Virus record (IMG/VR): IMGVR_UViG_3300034061_002198
Coordinates: 1-21,803 of that record
Source: a virus
Length of the DNA: 21,803 nt
Direction: 5' to 3' (one strand)
The notes below the pieces were generated by a model, which did not search any database, was not told the DNA's origin, and was given only the letters and a program-made list of their open reading frames with translations. The position numbers and the translations under genes were made by a program. Shown piece by piece: positions 3,918-10,235 of the stretch. Every line of letters starts with the position of its first letter. The stretch's first letter is position 1.

Positions 3918-4111
3918 TTGTTACCTCCGTATGTTTCGTTGTAGTATTGTTCTGCTGTATTCATTGATATTTTATCATAAGCATCAATTATCTGCTCCTT
4001 GTGCTTGGCGTTGGCTTGTTCAAGTATATGCTGCCCACTTGTTTTATCAAACCAAGTTGAAGTTAGTTGTTCATATATCCATTCTGTTGCTGTCTGTTTT
4101 ACTTGTTCCAT
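3914..4111 (-). CDS. Small conserved Bacteroidota phage protein
   Basis: A 65-residue acidic protein, largely helical by composition. The pattern TATEWIYEQL near the start, KEQIIDAYD in the middle and AEQYYNETYGG at the end is one I recognise from many small hypothetical proteins of Flavobacterium-type phages, but no function is established. The gene overlaps the upstream 236-residue gene by 13 bases and the MazG-like gene by 4, so it is translated as part of the same operon. Confidence 0.65.
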   Translation of the reverse strand: MEQVKQTATEWIYEQLTSTWFDKTSGQHILEQANAKHKEQIIDAYDKISMNTAEQYYNETYGGNK

Positions 4112-4809
4112 AAGTCTTCTATTGTTATTTGTTTTGCCATGTTAATTACTTCTTTGCTGTCCATTGATAGCGTTTCAATCTTTGCTCTTAGCTTTCTTCG
4201 CAATAATAAATCATTGGTTTTAGACTGATATTCTAAGTCTTCTAATACATAATCATAAGCCTCTTGAATATTAGCGTTAAACTCGATATTACTTACCTCA
4301 TTGGTATCTACTAATATCTTGTATATGTCACCTATGCTTGGTTCATAAAGTCCAAAATGACCAGTTTTAAGGTAGGTAGATTTCGCATAACTCATAAATT
4401 CATCTCGAATTCTTAGCTTATCTTCTGCGGTGTATTCCTTTATTGGTTCAATTCTTGGTGTGCTGCGTATTTTTATCGCTTCTAATCGCTTTTCTTCAGC
4501 CATAAAGGATTTAATCCATTGGTGAAAGGTTACGATGTTTAAACCAAAATATTCGCCATAAACTTTCCGTACACCATTTTGGAAGCACAAATCTAATTCA
4601 TCAATTTTTAAATTAATAAAGTATCGCTTAATTTCGTTTATCACTCCATTCGATAGGCTGATTAACTCCTTTGATTCGATTACCTTTCCGCAATCAATGT
4701 AAGTCTTTGCAAGTACTTTTATTACTCGGTCTTTTAATTCTTGTTGCTGCATATCAACTATTAGCTTAGAGTTGAGCGCAGTTAAGTAGTGGTTGTCGTT
4801 TGTTTTCAT
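4099..4809 (-). CDS. Uncharacterised protein next to replication gene, possible primosome component
   Basis: A 236-residue soluble, helix-rich and highly charged protein with no catalytic motif that I can recognise. Features seen: KVYGEYFGLNIVTFHQWIKSFM near residues 83-104, which resembles a helix-turn-helix (FGLNIVTFHQWI), then a long charged region rich in Lys, Glu and Arg. It follows the DUF6291 replication-type gene, separated from it only by the direct-repeat-flanked cassette, so before that insertion the two were probably adjacent. A role in replication initiation or helicase loading is plausible from context but is not shown by the sequence. Confidence 0.5.
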   Translation of the reverse strand: MKTNDNHYLTALNSKLIVDMQQQELKDRVIKVLAKTYIDCGKVIESKELISLSNGVINEIKRYFINLKIDELDLCFQNGVRKVYGEYFGLNIVTFHQWIKSFMAEEKRLEAIKIRSTPRIEPIKEYTAEDKLRIRDEFMSYAKSTYLKTGHFGLYEPSIGDIYKILVDTNEVSNIEFNANIQEAYDYVLEDLEYQSKTNDLLLRRKLRAKIETLSMDSKEVINMAKQITIEDLWNK

Positions 4810-4824
4810 TTTTGTTTTATAGTT

Positions 4825-5028
4825 TTAGTTTTCATCCTGTATCATATTAAGTGCCTCTTTAGACCATTCAGAAAGTTTAGATTTTACAACTAATTTTAGT
4901 TCATCAACTTTTGACAATGGACAGCGAAAGGCAACCGTTTTTGTTTCTTCGTTGTATTTAGGTTTAGCACCCGACCCTTGCCGAGTGCCTCCCCTACCAA
5001 TTTTCTTTTTTTGTATATTTTTTTCCAT
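4825..5028 (-). CDS. Small ribbon-helix-helix-like DNA-binding protein
   Basis: A 67-residue basic protein. The N-terminus has KKKIGRGGTRQGSGAKP, a Gly/Arg-rich arm seen in many small phage DNA-binding proteins. ETKTVAFRCPLSKVDELK (about 28-45) fits a short beta strand followed by a helix, as in ribbon-helix-helix regulators. The last residues, KEALNMIQDEN, are almost the same as the end of the upstream DUF6291 protein (KEALNMLYDEN), and the DNA is also repeated there, so this C-terminus seems acquired by duplication. It overlaps the 83-residue gene by 35 bases. It may be the regulator that acts on the inverted repeat in the promoter of its own cassette. Confidence 0.6.
   Translation of the reverse strand: MEKNIQKKKIGRGGTRQGSGAKPKYNEETKTVAFRCPLSKVDELKLVVKSKLSEWSKEALNMIQDEN
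4843..4860. repeat. Direct repeat copy 1 (18 bp) at end of RHH gene
   Basis: CATATTAAGTGCCTCTTT occurs here and again at 5371-5388. Eight further bases (TTTTCATC) are shared six bases away in both copies with the same spacing. Both copies encode the last codons of a gene (KEALNMxxDEN then stop). Together they bracket a 0.5-kb segment with two genes and a promoter. Confidence 0.85.
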
Positions 5029-5245
5029 TTTTTGCTACTCTGTAATTTCTAAAATTTGCATTTGTACTAAAAGAACCGCTTGGATAATGAAAACCTAAAT
5101 ATGTTTGAAGTCTTGCCATTTCATCAGTAACTATACCAGTTGATAAGCATATCTGTTGATTACCTTTGGATATTTGGCTATCAATAAATTTCTCAAACTT
5201 TTCAATTTCTTGCTCTGTAAATGTTGGTTTTGTATACGCTTCCAT
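4994..5245 (-). CDS. Hypothetical protein, first gene of the repeat-flanked cassette
   Basis: An 83-residue protein that I do not recognise. It begins with a charged helical stretch (TEQEIEKFEKFIDSQISKG) and ends with a basic tail (YRVAKNGKKYTKKENW). The middle contains GFHYPSGSFSTNANFRNY, rich in aromatic and small residues. No signal peptide or membrane segment is visible. It has a strong promoter directly upstream and shares 35 bases with the RHH-like gene, so the two form a small unit, in layout like a phage moron or a toxin/antitoxin-sized pair. A toxin role is a guess with no motif support. Confidence 0.55.
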   Translation of the reverse strand: MEAYTKPTFTEQEIEKFEKFIDSQISKGNQQICLSTGIVTDEMARLQTYLGFHYPSGSFSTNANFRNYRVAKNGKKYTKKENW

Positions 5246-5268
5246 TTTGTTTGTTTTTAATTACAGAG

Positions 5269-5299
5269 CAAATATAAACCCATACTTTGAAACTGCAAA
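5269..5299 (-). promoter_or_regulatory. Bacteroidota promoter TTTG-N19-TATATTTG
   Basis: On the minus strand a -33 TTTG (5296-5299) is followed after exactly 19 bases by TATATTTG (5269-5276). Both boxes match the Bacteroidota sigma factor consensus TTTG-N19-TAnnTTTG without a mismatch. The start codon of the 83-residue gene is 24 bases downstream. It lies inside the segment bracketed by direct repeats, so the cassette carries its own promoter. Confidence 0.8.
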
Positions 5300-5309
5300 C
5301 TATTTCAAA
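5286..5309. promoter_or_regulatory. Candidate operator TTTGAAA-N10-TTTCAAA
   Basis: Two perfect 7-bp inverted arms (5286-5292 and 5303-5309) are separated by 10 bases, and the -33 box of the cassette promoter lies between them. A dimeric regulator binding here would block or guide RNA polymerase. The RHH-like protein of the same cassette is the obvious candidate. The AT-rich arms could also arise by chance. Confidence 0.45.
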
Positions 5310-5352
5310 TAATTATTAAATATATTTTATAACTTACTGAAAATCAAACGCT

Positions 5353-5997
5353 CTAATTTTCATCATAAAGCATATTAAGTGCCTCTTTTGCTGAATTTAC
5401 CATTGATTCCATTTTGCTCGGTTGTCCATTGGACAAATTTTGTCCTTTGTTATAATTATTACTTACCCACCTTTCTAATCTTCTATTTAAGTCCCAAGTC
5501 TTTTCTAATTCCTGCCTAAACTTTGTATTTGATTTATTAGGTTCTGTCCAATAGCCATAAAATTTATTTAAAGTTTCACGACCATATTGAGGTAAAAATA
5601 TTTGTAGTGTTGAAGCAAATTTTAATTTGCGGTCTTCTATATCATTAACCTTTACCTTACCATTATCCTTATCCTTATCCTTATCCTTATCGGGTTTTTT
5701 GGGTTCTTTAAAACCCAGTGGGTTATTTGGGTTTATTTGGGTTTCTACTTTGGCAGGTCTTCCACCTTTGATTCCATTGGTTTTATTCCTTTCAATAACA
5801 CTTAAATACTTTTCGTTATCAAGTCTAAATTGATTTTTAAAGAATAAAAAAGCCATGTATATAGATGATGTATTCAATGGTTCTATACCATCAATTTGAT
5901 ATTGAAATATTGCATCAAGTAGGTTACCTTTATCTTCACTGCTTAATCCTTTTATAGGTTCATAAAAAGACTTATATAATACAAATGATTCTTTCAT
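5353..5997 (-). CDS. DUF6291-type phage replication protein
   Basis: A 214-residue protein. Residues 1-80 (MKESFVLYKSFYEPIKGLS, GNLLDAIFQYQIDG, then NGIKGGRPAK) fit the DUF6291 domain found in replication regions of many phages, where it is thought to act like a replication initiator or helicase-loader adaptor. A low-complexity linker (KKPDKDKDKDKDN) follows, encoded by a run of hexamers, and a C-terminal part with TLQIFLPQYGRETLNKFYGYW that resembles DNA-binding C-termini of DnaD/DnaT-like replication proteins. It starts after a 121-base leader with repeated TTCACAAC boxes. Its last eleven codons are duplicated in the RHH gene downstream. Confidence 0.6.
   Translation of the reverse strand: MKESFVLYKSFYEPIKGLSSEDKGNLLDAIFQYQIDGIEPLNTSSIYMAFLFFKNQFRLDNEKYLSVIERNKTNGIKGGRPAKVETQINPNNPLGFKEPKKPDKDKDKDKDNGKVKVNDIEDRKLKFASTLQIFLPQYGRETLNKFYGYWTEPNKSNTKFRQELEKTWDLNRRLERWVSNNYNKGQNLSNGQPSKMESMVNSAKEALNMLYDEN
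5371..5388. repeat. Direct repeat copy 2 (18 bp) at end of DUF6291 gene
   Basis: Second copy of CATATTAAGTGCCTCTTT (first at 4843-4860), 528 bases away in the same orientation, again encoding the C-terminal residues just before a stop codon. This copy is most likely the original, as it belongs to the longer replication gene. Confidence 0.85.
5663..5691. repeat. Hexanucleotide tandem repeat (TTATCC, nearly 5 copies)
   Basis: TTATCC is repeated four full times plus TTATC. On the coding strand it encodes the Lys-Asp linker of the DUF6291 protein. Because the unit is two codons, slippage would change linker length without breaking the frame. Confidence 0.9.
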
Positions 5998-6118
5998 AAT
6001 TCACAACTTTAAATTCACAACTAAAAGAAAAAAAAAGGGGGGAAGGCGTTGTGAAACCTTTTACATCCATGCCTGAATAACCCTTTGCAAATATAACTTA
6101 TTGAAATTTAAAAAAAAA
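5998..6118 (-). promoter_or_regulatory. Leader of replication gene with three TTCACAAC boxes
   Basis: This 121-base gap holds a TATATTTG -7 box (6088-6095, no clear TTTG upstream) and then three copies of one octamer: GTTGTGAA in inverted sense at 6048-6055 and TTCACAAC at 6000-6007 and 6014-6021 (plus-strand reading). In RNA the first copy met by polymerase can pair over all 8 bases with either of the two others, and the last copy ends 2 bases before the start codon. Between them are runs of nine A and six G (plus strand). The boxes could be operator sites for a repressor or alternative RNA hairpins that control translation. Confidence 0.5.
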
Positions 6119-6778
6119 TTATTCTATAATTTCTGAATTATTATTTTCATCCATTTCAGCAATCCATGCTTTAGAAAAATCTTTATCATTAAATAATTCA
6201 GATAAACCACCTATTTGGCATAACCTTAAAACTTCATCAGCATCCATACCTAAATTTTTAGCTATTTTTTCATCACTCCAATTACGTTTTTTTAAGTCTA
6301 TAACAATATCACTCATAGCATCTATTTTATGCTTACCTCTTGCTCTGTTATGTCTAATTGTAGATGCTACCCTATCATTAATTTGGGTTCTATCTTCATT
6401 TATTGTTACCACTGGTAAATACCCATGTACTCTACTTTGTATTTCTTCACATTCTTTACCAACTCTATTTCTATGAAATCCATCTATAACTTCCCTTGTT
6501 ATATTATCATCATTTAACATAGATACGATGGGCTGCGTATAACCATCTGCCGAAATACTTAATCTTAATAATTCCATTTCAGGTGGTGCTACAGAATTAG
6601 GGTTGTAATCATTTGCTGCAACCAAATTATTTTTTACCCATAAAACACAATCTACTGGTTCTGTTTTCATTGGACTAATAGAATGTAAAAACAATTTTAC
6701 ATCATTAATTATTGCTACTTTCTCATCTGTTGTTAATGATTCAAAACCATTAAACAATTCTTTAATTTTGTCTATCAT
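6119..6778 (-). CDS. ibrB: IbrB-like ParB/Srx-domain protein
   Basis: A 219-residue protein with a ParB/sulfiredoxin-type fold: GYTQPIVSML (79-88), then the signature DGFHR at 99-103. NRARGKHKIDAMSDIV at 144-159 and a C-terminal LSELFNDKDFSKAW are close to what I remember of IbrB, the partner of IbrA in E. coli that was described as an activator of prophage-borne eib genes. ParB/Srx domains bind or hydrolyse nucleotides such as CTP or ATP; the substrate here is unknown. It overlaps the IbrA-like gene by 4 bases (ATGA), so the pair is made together. The region after its stop contains the replication gene leader. Confidence 0.75.
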   Translation of the reverse strand: MIDKIKELFNGFESLTTDEKVAIINDVKLFLHSISPMKTEPVDCVLWVKNNLVAANDYNPNSVAPPEMELLRLSISADGYTQPIVSMLNDDNITREVIDGFHRNRVGKECEEIQSRVHGYLPVVTINEDRTQINDRVASTIRHNRARGKHKIDAMSDIVIDLKKRNWSDEKIAKNLGMDADEVLRLCQIGGLSELFNDKDFSKAWIAEMDENNNSEIIE

Positions 6779-7989
6779 AAGTTGAATTTATTTGTTTCTC
6801 GTTGTTCTTTTTTTAACTTTAAATACTTTTCATACGCTTTTGTTTTATGTTGAGTAAAACCTAAACCTTTACACCAAAAATCATTTCTTAATAAAGATTT
6901 ACAAACCCTCCTCCAACTTGGAGCAAGTTTTTGGCTTTCTAATATGCTTGGGGCTTGGTCTGGTAATCCTTGTTTATAGCCTCTCTCTTTCCACCATTTG
7001 TCAAATACATATATTTTATTCTTGTAATGTTCTGATGTCTTTTCAGGTAATGTATTTAGGATTAATTCTGAAAATGATTTCCATGTATGATTTTGTGGTT
7101 TTGTAATTTTACCATATCCATTAATATTCCCAGTATCTTGAACATACAATGCGCCACTATTTGCACCATTCACTCTTGCTACTACTTTTGCCCATGTTTC
7201 AGGTTCAATAAGATGAAATAACCATAATCCCCGCCTTTGGTCATCTCCATATGGTTGACAAATTCTTTGTAATGAAATTGATAAACCTGCTTTGTGCATT
7301 AAATCGTATAAATGATTATGTCTTTTATTTTTAAATTTCCCATGATAAATCCAAATATCTTCAACACTCCAATCATAAATTGGGTAAACATTAAATACAT
7401 TATCTGTTACTTTTGTAGTCCATTGTTTGTCTTTAAATGTTACTTTTGATTTGCTTGCTATTGTTCTAAAACGATTTAAACTTTCATCTGCTCTAATACC
7501 AACTAAACATGCACAAGTTTTACCTTCAGAATACCACTCGCCAAATTCAGGCACAAACTCTTCAAATTCCATCCCTACTCTAAAAAATGGATAATGTTCA
7601 ATATCTATAATTGCATTTTTAGGTGGTTGCCTTATCCAATCTTCTTTTTTTTCCGAATCCCAACATAACCAAAAAGGCTCAAAAACACTAACTGCATTTC
7701 TTAAATGTATTGGTAAACAAACCCAGTTTAAATCTATGTAGTCCGAATACATATTTATACATTCTTTCATATGCTCAATAGTTAATTTATATTGACCTTC
7801 TAAGTCAACAATCATTATAGCAATTTTTCTATTTCTTTTTATAGCCTCATCCATAACCATGTGAAGCATAACTGTGCTATCTTTTCCACCGCTAAAAGAT
7901 AAATAAACCTTTTCAAAATTATCAAATGTAAAGTTTATCCTTTTAATAGCCTCTTCATAAACATTCGTTTCTAATCTAATTTTAGGCAT
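6775..7989 (-). CDS. ibrA: IbrA-like PAPS-reductase/ATP-pyrophosphatase family protein with DUF3440
   Basis: A 404-residue protein of full family length. The PP-loop SGGKDS lies at 33-38 and would bind ATP or an adenylylated substrate. Later segments FEEFVPEFGEW, GIRADESLNRF, YPIYDWSVEDIWIY, RRGLWLFHLIEPETWA, KITKPQNHTW, EHYKNKIYVFDKWW and SWRRVCKSLLRNDFWC follow the IbrA/DUF3440 protein almost block by block. True PAPS reductases carry a catalytic ECGxH cysteine; I see no such tail, so sulfate reduction is unlikely. Family members occur with IbrB-type ParB proteins in phages and islands, where regulation or nucleic acid modification has been suggested. Operon order is partner gene, IbrA, IbrB, with a 19-base overlap upstream. 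Confidence 0.85.
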   Translation of the reverse strand: MPKIRLETNVYEEAIKRINFTFDNFEKVYLSFSGGKDSTVMLHMVMDEAIKRNRKIAIMIVDLEGQYKLTIEHMKECINMYSDYIDLNWVCLPIHLRNAVSVFEPFWLCWDSEKKEDWIRQPPKNAIIDIEHYPFFRVGMEFEEFVPEFGEWYSEGKTCACLVGIRADESLNRFRTIASKSKVTFKDKQWTTKVTDNVFNVYPIYDWSVEDIWIYHGKFKNKRHNHLYDLMHKAGLSISLQRICQPYGDDQRRGLWLFHLIEPETWAKVVARVNGANSGALYVQDTGNINGYGKITKPQNHTWKSFSELILNTLPEKTSEHYKNKIYVFDKWWKERGYKQGLPDQAPSILESQKLAPSWRRVCKSLLRNDFWCKGLGFTQHKTKAYEKYLKLKKEQRETNKFNL

Positions 7990-8636: not shown

Positions 8637-8984
8637 TTATTGGTTTGTATTTTTTAAAACGTATTGCAATTCACTTAGACATTTGTTGCCGAAATTTCGG
8701 ATTCTCAAAAGGTCTCTGTCACTTAATTGTTCTAAGTCTTTTAAGGTGTAGATTTTATTATCCATTAAGCAATTCTTAGTTCGTACCGACAAATCCATAT
8801 CTTTTATAAAGACTTGTTGTTCGGGTTCTTTTTTCTCATTCTTTTCTTCGTTGTATTTTAATAAACCTGCAAAGACATTCTTTTCATGATATCTAAGCAT
8901 ACCTAATGCTTCGATTGGTGTAACATCATCAGACCATTTGATTGAGGTCTGTAATCCATTGTATTCTATTGTTATTTTTTTCAT
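8637..8984 (-). CDS. RNA polymerase alpha-CTD-like protein
   Basis: A 115-residue protein with two parts. Residues 1-45 are a short domain of their own (KITIEYNGLQTSIKWSDDV..EALGMLRYHEK). Residues 58-111 match the C-terminal domain of the RNA polymerase alpha subunit: DMDLSVRTKNCL (62-73), YTLKDLEQLSDRDLL and RNFGNKCLSEL. By alignment to E. coli alpha-CTD, the DNA-contacting residues R265, N268, G296 and K298 appear as R68, N71, G99 and K101; C269 is C72 and S299 is replaced by C102. No N-terminal dimerisation domain is present, so it cannot be an alpha subunit. It could bind UP-element DNA or host activators in place of the host domain. It overlaps ninG by 4 bases. Confidence 0.75.
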   Translation of the reverse strand: MKKITIEYNGLQTSIKWSDDVTPIEALGMLRYHEKNVFAGLLKYNEEKNEKKEPEQQVFIKDMDLSVRTKNCLMDNKIYTLKDLEQLSDRDLLRIRNFGNKCLSELQYVLKNTNQ

Positions 8985-9502
8985 TTTATTTTGTATTTGT
9001 TTTTAATTTCTTGTAATTCTTCTATTGTCCATTTCTTTGTTCGTGTTTCATTCGCTAAGTCTTCAAGTGCGATAACATCGTCAAGTCCTATTTTTTTAAT
9101 CAATCCTTGCCTGTATGCTGCGGTGTTACCATCTAAGTATTGGTTACAATAGCTGCATTGTTTATTCGTGTTCCTTTCGTCAAATATAACTCCGCTGTAT
9201 ATTTCTGCTTTTAAGTAATGACCACCATCCCATTTAGCTTCATTCGTTCCACAACTGATACAAGGGTCTTTCTCATCTCGTAATCTACACCACTTTTGAA
9301 AGTGTAACTTAATCGGATTTCTTAGCTGTGCTTGAGTTTTAAGTTTGTTTTTAGCTTCGGATTTTATCTCGGAATTAACTCGTTTTATGCTTGTTTTTTT
9401 TGGGTGCAACTTACCCCATTCAATAGCACATTGATATCCGCAGACACTAATTGTACTATTGAATTGAGTGAAATCTTTTTTGCATAATTTGCACTTAGCC
9501 AT
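8981..9502 (-). CDS. ninG: NinG/Rap-like recombination protein
   Basis: A 173-residue zinc-binding protein that matches the phage lambda NinG (Rap) family. An N-terminal CKLCKKDF...CGYQCAIEW segment (Cys 4, 7, 21, 25) is a small zinc knuckle. The middle has the family pattern FQKWCRLRDEKDPCISCG, then GGHYLKAEIYSG, NTNKQCSYCNQYLDGN and YRQGLIKKIG. NinG binds and processes branched DNA in the lambda Red pathway and has an HNH-like arrangement. It overlaps the exonuclease gene by 8 bases, which places it in a recombination module with a phage exonuclease. Confidence 0.9.
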   Translation of the reverse strand: MAKCKLCKKDFTQFNSTISVCGYQCAIEWGKLHPKKTSIKRVNSEIKSEAKNKLKTQAQLRNPIKLHFQKWCRLRDEKDPCISCGTNEAKWDGGHYLKAEIYSGVIFDERNTNKQCSYCNQYLDGNTAAYRQGLIKKIGLDDVIALEDLANETRTKKWTIEELQEIKNKYKIK

Positions 9503-10235
9503 AAATAGTTTTTAAATAGTTTCTCATTTCAATCACTCTACTTTGCATAAATTTTAATGTTTCATCATGCGCTGTAAATTCTCTTATGCAGATTCTATCT
9601 TCTATTGGTATAGGTACAAATCTATTGATTAACTTATCTGTAAATTCATCGCCACCAAGTCCACGAATATTTATAAACCTATCAAAGTTTTCTTGAGTAA
9701 ATATCATGTCGGTTAAAATTTGCACCTCTCTCCATTCAGGAACATCACCTTTGTAGTTCTCAATTTCAAGTGATTTTAAAACCATTTCATCAGGGGCATC
9801 AGATAAAATATAAATCAATTTAAAGTTTGAACGCTTGTATAAGTTCATGTATGCTCTACCCTGAAATACATAATCTTGGTTGATTTCATGTTTTGCATCA
9901 TCAAACGTAAATAAATCCCAAGCATTTTTAACATCAATTATAGTATCTGTTAATTCATCATCAATATCACATTCGCCAGTAAAGAAATCATTAGTAATTC
10001 TTACCTCATTCTTTTTAAAGTCTCTTTGAAGATAGTCTGAAAGTTCTTTTATGCTGCTTTCTTCGACTTTTGTTCCCTTGTCGGTGTATTTACTTGTAAA
10101 TGATTTTACCCTTCCATATTTATGCTCTAAATAGATTTTGCGGGCTAACTTCTCGCCAGTCTTACCAAGTCCTTTTGGTTTGCATATTTCGCCACTTTGA
10201 GAGGCTCTTACAATTATTTCATCTATGTTTACCAT
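9495..10235 (-). CDS. PD-(D/E)XK exonuclease (lambda Exo/RecB-like)
   Basis: A 246-residue nuclease. The active site reads in order: GTKVEES (E58/E59), TGECDID (D90), IIDVKNA (D101 and K103), and QGRAYM (Q125 and Y129), which fits the GxxxE, D, (D/E)xK, QxxxY series of lambda-exonuclease and RecB/Cas4-type nucleases. Such enzymes resect double-stranded ends for single-strand annealing and for replication or packaging. It is placed between NinG and a small protein that may bind single-stranded DNA. No RecT/Beta-type annealase is recognised in the neighbours, so that role may be filled by an unknown protein nearby. Confidence 0.75.
   Translation of the reverse strand: MVNIDEIIVRASQSGEICKPKGLGKTGEKLARKIYLEHKYGRVKSFTSKYTDKGTKVEESSIKELSDYLQRDFKKNEVRITNDFFTGECDIDDELTDTIIDVKNAWDLFTFDDAKHEINQDYVFQGRAYMNLYKRSNFKLIYILSDAPDEMVLKSLEIENYKGDVPEWREVQILTDMIFTQENFDRFINIRGLGGDEFTDKLINRFVPIPIEDRICIREFTAHDETLKFMQSRVIEMRNYLKTIYG

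Follow-up and report, generated by a model that had tools for sequence, protein, structure and literature searches.

A two-gene insert with its own predicted promoter between two copies of a replication-gene end in an uncultured virus

Genes and repeats at the locus

The DNA analysed here is a virus record of 21,803 bases, called the window in its full length, and the four genes of the locus lie on its minus strand. On that strand a DUF6291 gene (5353-5997) is followed by an 83-aa gene (4994-5245), a gene for a 67-aa protein that we call RHH-like (4825-5028), and a 236-aa gene (4099-4809). The nearest named relatives of the window's portal-type protein are those of Nonlabens phages, and this distant match (28.7% over 113 aa) is consistent with a Bacteroidota host. 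All sequences used, including the loci given L numbers below, are uncultured metagenomic contigs, from collections that may omit near-identical records. The features of the locus are as follows.

5353-5997, minus strand: target gene, a DUF6291 replication-type protein of 214 aa with a shared C-terminal tail of about 33 aa
5354-5388, minus strand: tail copy 1, the in-frame 3' end of the DUF6291 gene (KEALNMLYDEN, stop); its distal part CTTTATGATGAAAATTAGAGCG is common to all four known inserts
5325-5348, minus strand: element TTTGATTTTCAGTAAGTTATAAAA, the left edge of homology to attC cassettes
5286-5309, minus strand: inverted repeat TTTGAAA-N10-TTTCAAA over the -33 box, a candidate operator
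5269-5299, minus strand: predicted Bacteroidota-type promoter of the insert, TTTG-N19-TATATTTG, a sequence match in a region conserved in 28 frames
4994-5245, minus strand: cargo gene, 83 aa, of no known family, found beside an untailed RHH-like gene in L191-L194
4900-5264, minus strand: probable recently exchanged cargo block (leader, cargo and first part of the RHH-like gene), identical to cassette L014 at 361 of 365 positions
4825-5028, minus strand: RHH-like basic protein, 67 aa; residues 1-56 are conserved in 76 IMG/VR loci and residues 57-67 are the acquired tail
4826-4860, minus strand: tail copy 2, the 3' end of the RHH-like gene (KEALNMIQDEN, stop), which fits the replication-gene 3' end in empty-site relatives
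4099-4809, minus strand: 236-aa gene downstream of the insertion site

A sequence-only reading of the window had reported an exact 18-bp repeat at the 3' ends of the RHH-like and DUF6291 genes. This repeat is present (4843-4860 and 5371-5388) and forms the core of a direct repeat of 35 nt, 86% identical between its copies at 4826-4860 and 5354-5388, with a spacing of 528 nt. The copies share one minus-strand reading frame and encode the C-termini KEALNMIQDEN (4825-5028) and KEALNMLYDEN (5353-5997), so that both proteins do end in the KEALNMxxDEN motif described for them. Among 200 third-order Markov shuffles of the window, an exact 18-nt repeat within 1 kb turned up in 2, and without other genomes the repeat would count as no more than modestly unusual. 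It goes beyond chance because it is placed at two in-frame gene ends and because of the comparative data; relatives and empty sites rule out a chance repeat. The copies are diverged alleles whose distal parts read CTTTATGATGAAAATTAG and ATACAGGATGAAAACTAA.

The two small genes claimed between the copies are genuine ORFs (83 and 67 aa) and overlap by 35 nt. The promoter and inverted repeat claimed there were also located (5269-5299 and 5286-5309), the promoter by match to the Bacteroidota consensus, and the insert would thus have a promoter of its own. The inverted repeat lies inside the core promoter and is kept in most frames, that is, operons with the same promoter region and RHH-like gene. 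At least 2 aligned frames have one broken arm (L017 and L102), and the conservation may come from nothing but the promoter with which the inverted repeat overlaps. Farther upstream, TTTCARTAAGTTATA occurs at window positions 5328-5342 and 6092-6106, upstream of the insert genes and of the DUF6291 gene respectively, and is possibly a shared operator. Its longer form GATTTTCARNRAGTTATAAAA is found at 39 IMG/VR places, mostly upstream of genes; it was rejected as a marker of RHH-like genes, most of these places being without a close homologue. Elsewhere in the window, a PAPS reductase/DUF3440 gene (6775-7989) adjoins a ParB-like gene (6119-6778).

A C-terminal tail common to unrelated replication proteins

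The ending of the DUF6291 protein belongs to a C-terminal tail of about 33 residues encoded at 5354-5455, NKGQNLSNGQPSKMESMVNSAKEALNMxxDEN, which is not specific to DUF6291 and is found on at least 6 unrelated replication-type N-termini. Its carriers are two kinds of DUF6291 protein, a DUF1376-like protein of L098 whose match falls under the curated cut-off, the Lin1244_N protein of L123 and L129, a SKLRSINTV... protein (L102 and L108-L110), a protein of L119 with a weak match to phage replication initiators, and a further kind in L013, L016, and L103. The 236-aa gene was found in 17 loci, and the tail lies upstream of it in all 14 that contain enough DNA on that side, 3 of which have two tails (L182, L184, and L188, the contigs of L013, L102, and L016) and are carriers of the module described below. 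Being upstream of the 236-aa gene in all judged loci, the tail is a constant joint between two variable parts, the replication gene on one side and the downstream slot on the other. The 236-aa gene was not found in cultured phages, nor was the tail at the thresholds used. The tail may be a peptide by which these proteins dock onto a shared replisome partner, and its occurrence on unrelated replication proteins is a separate, testable lead.

Empty and occupied sites in related genomes

Related phages had been predicted to include an empty site with one repeat copy and no cassette, and such sites exist in L002, L003, and L129. In the two IMG/VR loci L002 and L003, a DUF6291 protein of another kind but with the same C-terminal half ends in a single tail and is followed directly by the 236-aa gene, with the junction sequence ...AAAGAGGCACTTAATATGATACACGATGAAAACTAAAACTATAAAATAAAAATG. 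The empty site of L129 has a third kind of replication-type protein upstream. The window and L002 share 95.5% identity over 268 nt of left flank and 92.3% over 300 nt of right flank; between these flanks L002 has one tail and nothing else, and the structural difference at the site is an insert of 528 nt. Similar pairs are formed by occupied L013 and unoccupied L098 (flanks 90.7% over 281 nt and 98.7% over 300 nt) and by occupied L102 and unoccupied L108 (97.0% over 296 nt and 93.5% over 62 nt). The downstream sequences differ between the L013/L098 and L102/L108 pairs, and L016 has the downstream allele of L108. No module is present at the tail in L098, L108, or L119; L098 and L108 have attC-type sites and other genes farther along.

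The two tail copies can be assigned by comparison with these empty sites. In each occupied genome tail copy 2 matches the local empty allele, at 45 of 45 nt in L102/L108 and at 43 of 45 nt in the window/L002 pair, while tail copy 1 ends in the insert's own MTTTATGAYGAAAATTAGAGCG in all four occupied genomes. Because copy 2 fits the local empty allele, it is the displaced original 3' end, and the distal part of copy 1 came with the insert, making the replication gene whole again. A simple recent duplication of one tail is ruled out by the same observations, namely that the distal parts are different alleles and that copy 2 fits the local one. Two different alleles are better accounted for by exchange between phages than by a target site freshly duplicated. 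The sequence-only reading had proposed a moron-like insertion with duplication of the target gene end, leaving the replication gene intact and giving the inserted gene a new C-terminus. This reading is supported by the empty sites, the bracketing tails, the intact target gene, and the tail copies at both gene ends, and its target duplication holds as to the outcome, though with two alleles as the copies. The insert is flanked by direct repeats of its target.

Four tail-bracketed modules are known (window, L013, L016, and L102), all metagenomic, and they are flanked by three upstream gene types and three downstream alleles. Relatives that lack the insert and others with different passenger genes show the site as an apparently interchangeable cargo slot passed among phages.

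The RHH-like gene and its variable ends

Relatives of the RHH-like protein are encoded in 76 IMG/VR loci. As a check, homologues without the DEN tail had been suggested as worth seeking, and they make up the majority, SEWSVK followed by a stop being the end in 49 of about 67 tabulated homologues. The KEALNM tail is found on four RHH-like genes only, those of the window, L013, and L016 and a diverged paralogue in L102, always as SEWS-KEALNMxxDEN/Q, and in all four the upstream gene also ends in the tail. The sequence-only reading had tied this C-terminus to a DUF6291 neighbour. The neighbours in L013, L016, and L102 are not DUF6291 genes, which departs from that expectation in the letter only, as they are nevertheless tailed. 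Other RHH-like ends that start straight after SEW are CMADNK, F, SKVS, SVNILK, and LV, which suggests that residues past SEW are probably free to vary. The copied C-terminus is most simply read as a by-product of the position of the join. In L288, L295, L297, L280, L031, L037, L038, L048, and L064, the RHH-like 3' end joins other sequence straight after the SEW codons, and these nine loci may represent additional captures lacking att ends.

In the protein we distinguish a conserved arm (GGxRxGSGAKPKY), a strand (TKTVAFRCP), and a helix; the SVK form is too short past the strand for a normal second helix. It gave no credible match in Pfam, NCBIfam, Foldseek, or a PDB HMM search, and no helix-turn-helix family matched it. 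The AlphaFold model (mean pLDDT 76) has short strands and one long helix that continues through the tail. We use the label RHH-like for what is at most a putative ribbon-helix-helix protein: the model is not strand-helix-helix, and neither AlphaFold, Foldseek, nor the PDB HMM search supports that fold. Any DNA binding by the protein is putative. The gene was not found in cultured phages at the thresholds used and is present in 2 of 84,980 species genomes, L195 (JAKPEO010000044.1) and L196. L195 is a possibly viral contig of a bacterial MAG and has the gene in an attC-type cassette.

The same operon as an attC-type cassette

The pair of the 83-aa gene and the RHH-like gene recurs in L191-L194, where the RHH-like protein ends in SVK (SIK in L191) and has no tail. 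In this cassette form the pair starts at GTTAGCTGCTG and ends at CAGCTAAC. An attC-like hairpin ending in GCTG abuts TTAGCTGCTGTTTTT, followed by the promoter, the two genes, and TAAAATAGCAGCTAAC as the last bases of the cassette, with a full attC site next in L194. The first and last bases of the cassettes are complementary (GTTAGCTGC...GCAGCTAAC), as in integron cassettes, and a cognate start lies upstream in 27 of 45 deduplicated core-bearing loci, a few of these probably being chance matches. Hairpins of attC type with AAC/GTT cores adjoin the homologous cassettes; when six attC strands were folded, four had z scores of -2.6 to -4.7 and two were not significant. Many loci retain the first arm of the attC site only. 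A reversed reading of the arrays, with attI at the right and antisense genes, was dropped, since the cognate ends give a gene-then-attC order.

Homology between the window and the cassettes spans TTTGATTTTCAG to GAGTGGTC, which is the whole operon minus both att ends. No attC-like site was found in the window by a hairpin scan whose yield was 1-9 sites in tested loci with attC and 0-1 in shuffled sequence. Within the homologous span, identity to L014 is 361/365 in the block but only 60/85 in the promoter-side flank (Fisher P = 4e-16) and 31/38 in the 3' flank (P = 1e-5), and these sharp breakpoints support what would be a recent replacement of cargo inside an older frame. The cargo of L013 is also found as an attC-type cassette, in L019.

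Arrays of attC cassettes lie directly after the same replication-gene tail in L001, L004-L007, L103, L109, L110, and L123, and after the module in L013; examples are L005:5305-7320, L006:5302-5723, and L013:5477-6913, and some arrays have methyltransferase-like genes. No tyrosine recombinase of the integron integrase family (PF00589) was found in 21 partial virus records, so an integrase for the tail-adjacent arrays would have to be supplied from outside, in the simplest case by the host.

A family of frames with swappable cargo

Across 28 frames, comprising 24 distinct attC-type frames and the four tail-bracketed ones, the promoter region and RHH-like gene are constant and the cargo falls into 22 families (BLASTP E 1e-3). 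A pattern scan for the cassette start GTTAGCTGCTGTTTTT gave 65 sites with at least 900 nt downstream, of which 26 have both the promoter and the RHH-like gene, 39 have neither, and none is discordant. The cargo searched had no credible Pfam, PHROGs, or PADLOC match, and the tested cargo had no likeness to a known anti-defence protein or toxin and no known homologue.

In acr-aca operons, a single promoter with an inverted repeat in its core precedes one or more variable small genes, and a conserved regulator-like gene comes last; the operon here has this layout, and it is plausible that it works in a comparable way. We do not assign the operon to that class, because its putative regulator is not a helix-turn-helix protein and any anti-defence activity is putative. 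As a tentative proposal, somewhat more likely to need revision than to stand, the RHH-like gene would mark a family of swappable-cargo counter-defence operons of Bacteroidota phages. These would be delivered both as attC cassettes and as modules bracketed by replication-gene ends, loaded, unloaded, and re-stocked by homologous recombination, and the 22 cargo families would consist of new proteins directed against the host or its defences.

Origin and movement of the module

We think it likely that the window holds a moron, consisting of promoter, cargo, and RHH-like gene, at the 3' end of a replication gene and bracketed by its tail, such that the replication protein does not lose its C-terminus and the displaced end becomes that of the last inserted gene, with the tails acting as homology arms and with Aca-like repression. 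Occupied and unoccupied sites exist, tail copy 2 is the local allele, the operon has an attC form elsewhere, and cargo varies in fixed frames; to these observations the mechanism adds a recombination route, a repressor role, and an anti-defence role that we infer. At some point a cassette operon would have lost its att ends, and illegitimate recombination involving two phages would have fused it, at the SEWS codon, to the tail of a replication gene; this fusion would be one event because all four modules share the SEWS junction and the distal part of tail copy 1. The tails would then have served as homology arms, and the combinations of flanks suggest that the module moves between phages that differ in replication gene and downstream allele. 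Such arms would let phage recombination insert, remove, or re-stock the module in any tailed phage, while the conserved promoter and RHH-like gene would be inner arms for cargo exchange, as the breakpoints support. Judging by the layout, the most probable role of the RHH-like protein is to repress the strong promoter, by way of the inverted repeat, once an early burst is over, in the manner of Aca proteins, and the cargo would act against the host or its defences. The window encodes NinG/Rap (8981-9502, E 9e-37) and an exonuclease-like protein (9495-10235), which would be suitable phage enzymes for the recombination. Against the use of the tails as arms, 18-35 nt of homology is short for efficient recombination, and the route is drawn from comparison of sequences.

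The module need not have had mobility of its own. A single ancestral illegitimate join of an operon ending in the RHH-like gene to a tail, with flanks later reassorted by ordinary phage mosaicism, is an appreciable if somewhat doubtful possibility. It agrees with the common distal part of tail copy 1 and the SEWS-KEAL junction of the four inserts, whose fusion was probably one event, but the three upstream types, three downstream alleles, and matching unoccupied relatives require several exchanges at the tails. Moreover, the L098 tail ATATATGATGAAAACTAAAAC resembles a hybrid of the two copies, which is what excision would leave, although as a single case this is weak evidence. Insertion by an integron integrase at the replication-gene end, with later erosion of the att sites, is very doubtful. 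Such a history would suit the attC arrays at the same tail in the nine loci listed above, but it does not explain why tail sequence replaces the att ends on both sides, and both the lack of an attC-like site in the window and that of a tyrosine recombinase in the 21 partial records speak against it.

The remaining alternatives concern function. If the tail is a docking peptide of replication initiators, the RHH-like protein may have gained it to interfere with or regulate replication, in keeping with its retention on at least 6 unrelated replication-type proteins and its in-frame position on all four RHH-like proteins, where the model has it prolonging the last helix. However, these RHH-like proteins have just 11 of the tail's roughly 33 residues, and the many other ends straight after SEW make the residues beyond it look dispensable, so we regard a functional fusion as quite improbable. 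A toxin-antitoxin module, with the cargo as toxin, the RHH-like protein as antitoxin, and the tails incidental, is a little easier to entertain but still unlikely. Antitoxins usually vary along with their toxin, whereas here one nearly constant partner accompanies 22 unrelated cargo families, and no toxin family was matched. In favour of such a module are the two overlapping small genes under their own promoter and the promoter-bearing toxin-antitoxin cassette described from a phage integron (PMC9892861).

Comparison with known systems

Phage morons are gene units with their own promoter inserted between two phage genes, and mosaic phages use short conserved boundary or linker stretches as crossover points. 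The window likewise has an inserted unit with a predicted promoter of its own between phage genes. Here, by contrast, the coding end of the target gene itself serves as linker; it lies on both sides of the insert and supplies the C-terminus of the inserted gene. Long target duplication accompanying insertion has been described for restriction-modification units in bacterial chromosomes (Nobusato et al. 2000, as cited in PMC3031569). In that summary, too, an accessory unit is flanked by direct repeats of its target, whereas in the window the target is the end of a phage replication gene and the copies come from different alleles.

Integron gene cassettes and attC clusters occur in phages (Qi et al. 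2023, PMC9892861). Like those cassettes, the homologous operons elsewhere have cognate ends and neighbouring attC hairpins but no integrase. A constant promoter/RHH-like frame with swappable cargo is not among the cassettes reported in the portions of that study consulted, and the window copy is without att ends. In acr-aca operons, a strong promoter with an inverted repeat precedes one or more variable small genes, and a conserved small regulator gene comes last (PMC9410906; archaeal counterpart, PMC11065993). The window shares the predicted promoter with its inverted repeat, the variable cargo, and the conserved small gene for a putative DNA-binding protein in last place. Known bacterial Aca families are helix-turn-helix proteins, which the RHH-like protein is not, and the anti-defence role here is putative. 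We know of no acr-aca operon delivered as an attC cassette or as a tail-bracketed module.

The locus is a worked case, with matched occupied and unoccupied sites, of how a phage can take a foreign operon into its replication region with little loss: the insert brings a spare copy of the end of the gene in which it lands. As this operon occurs both as a cassette and as a tail-bracketed module, integron-type cassettes are here connected with ordinary phage mosaicism. The fixed promoter/RHH-like frame could also serve as bait for small phage genes that are probably anti-host, in the way that aca genes have served for anti-CRISPRs.
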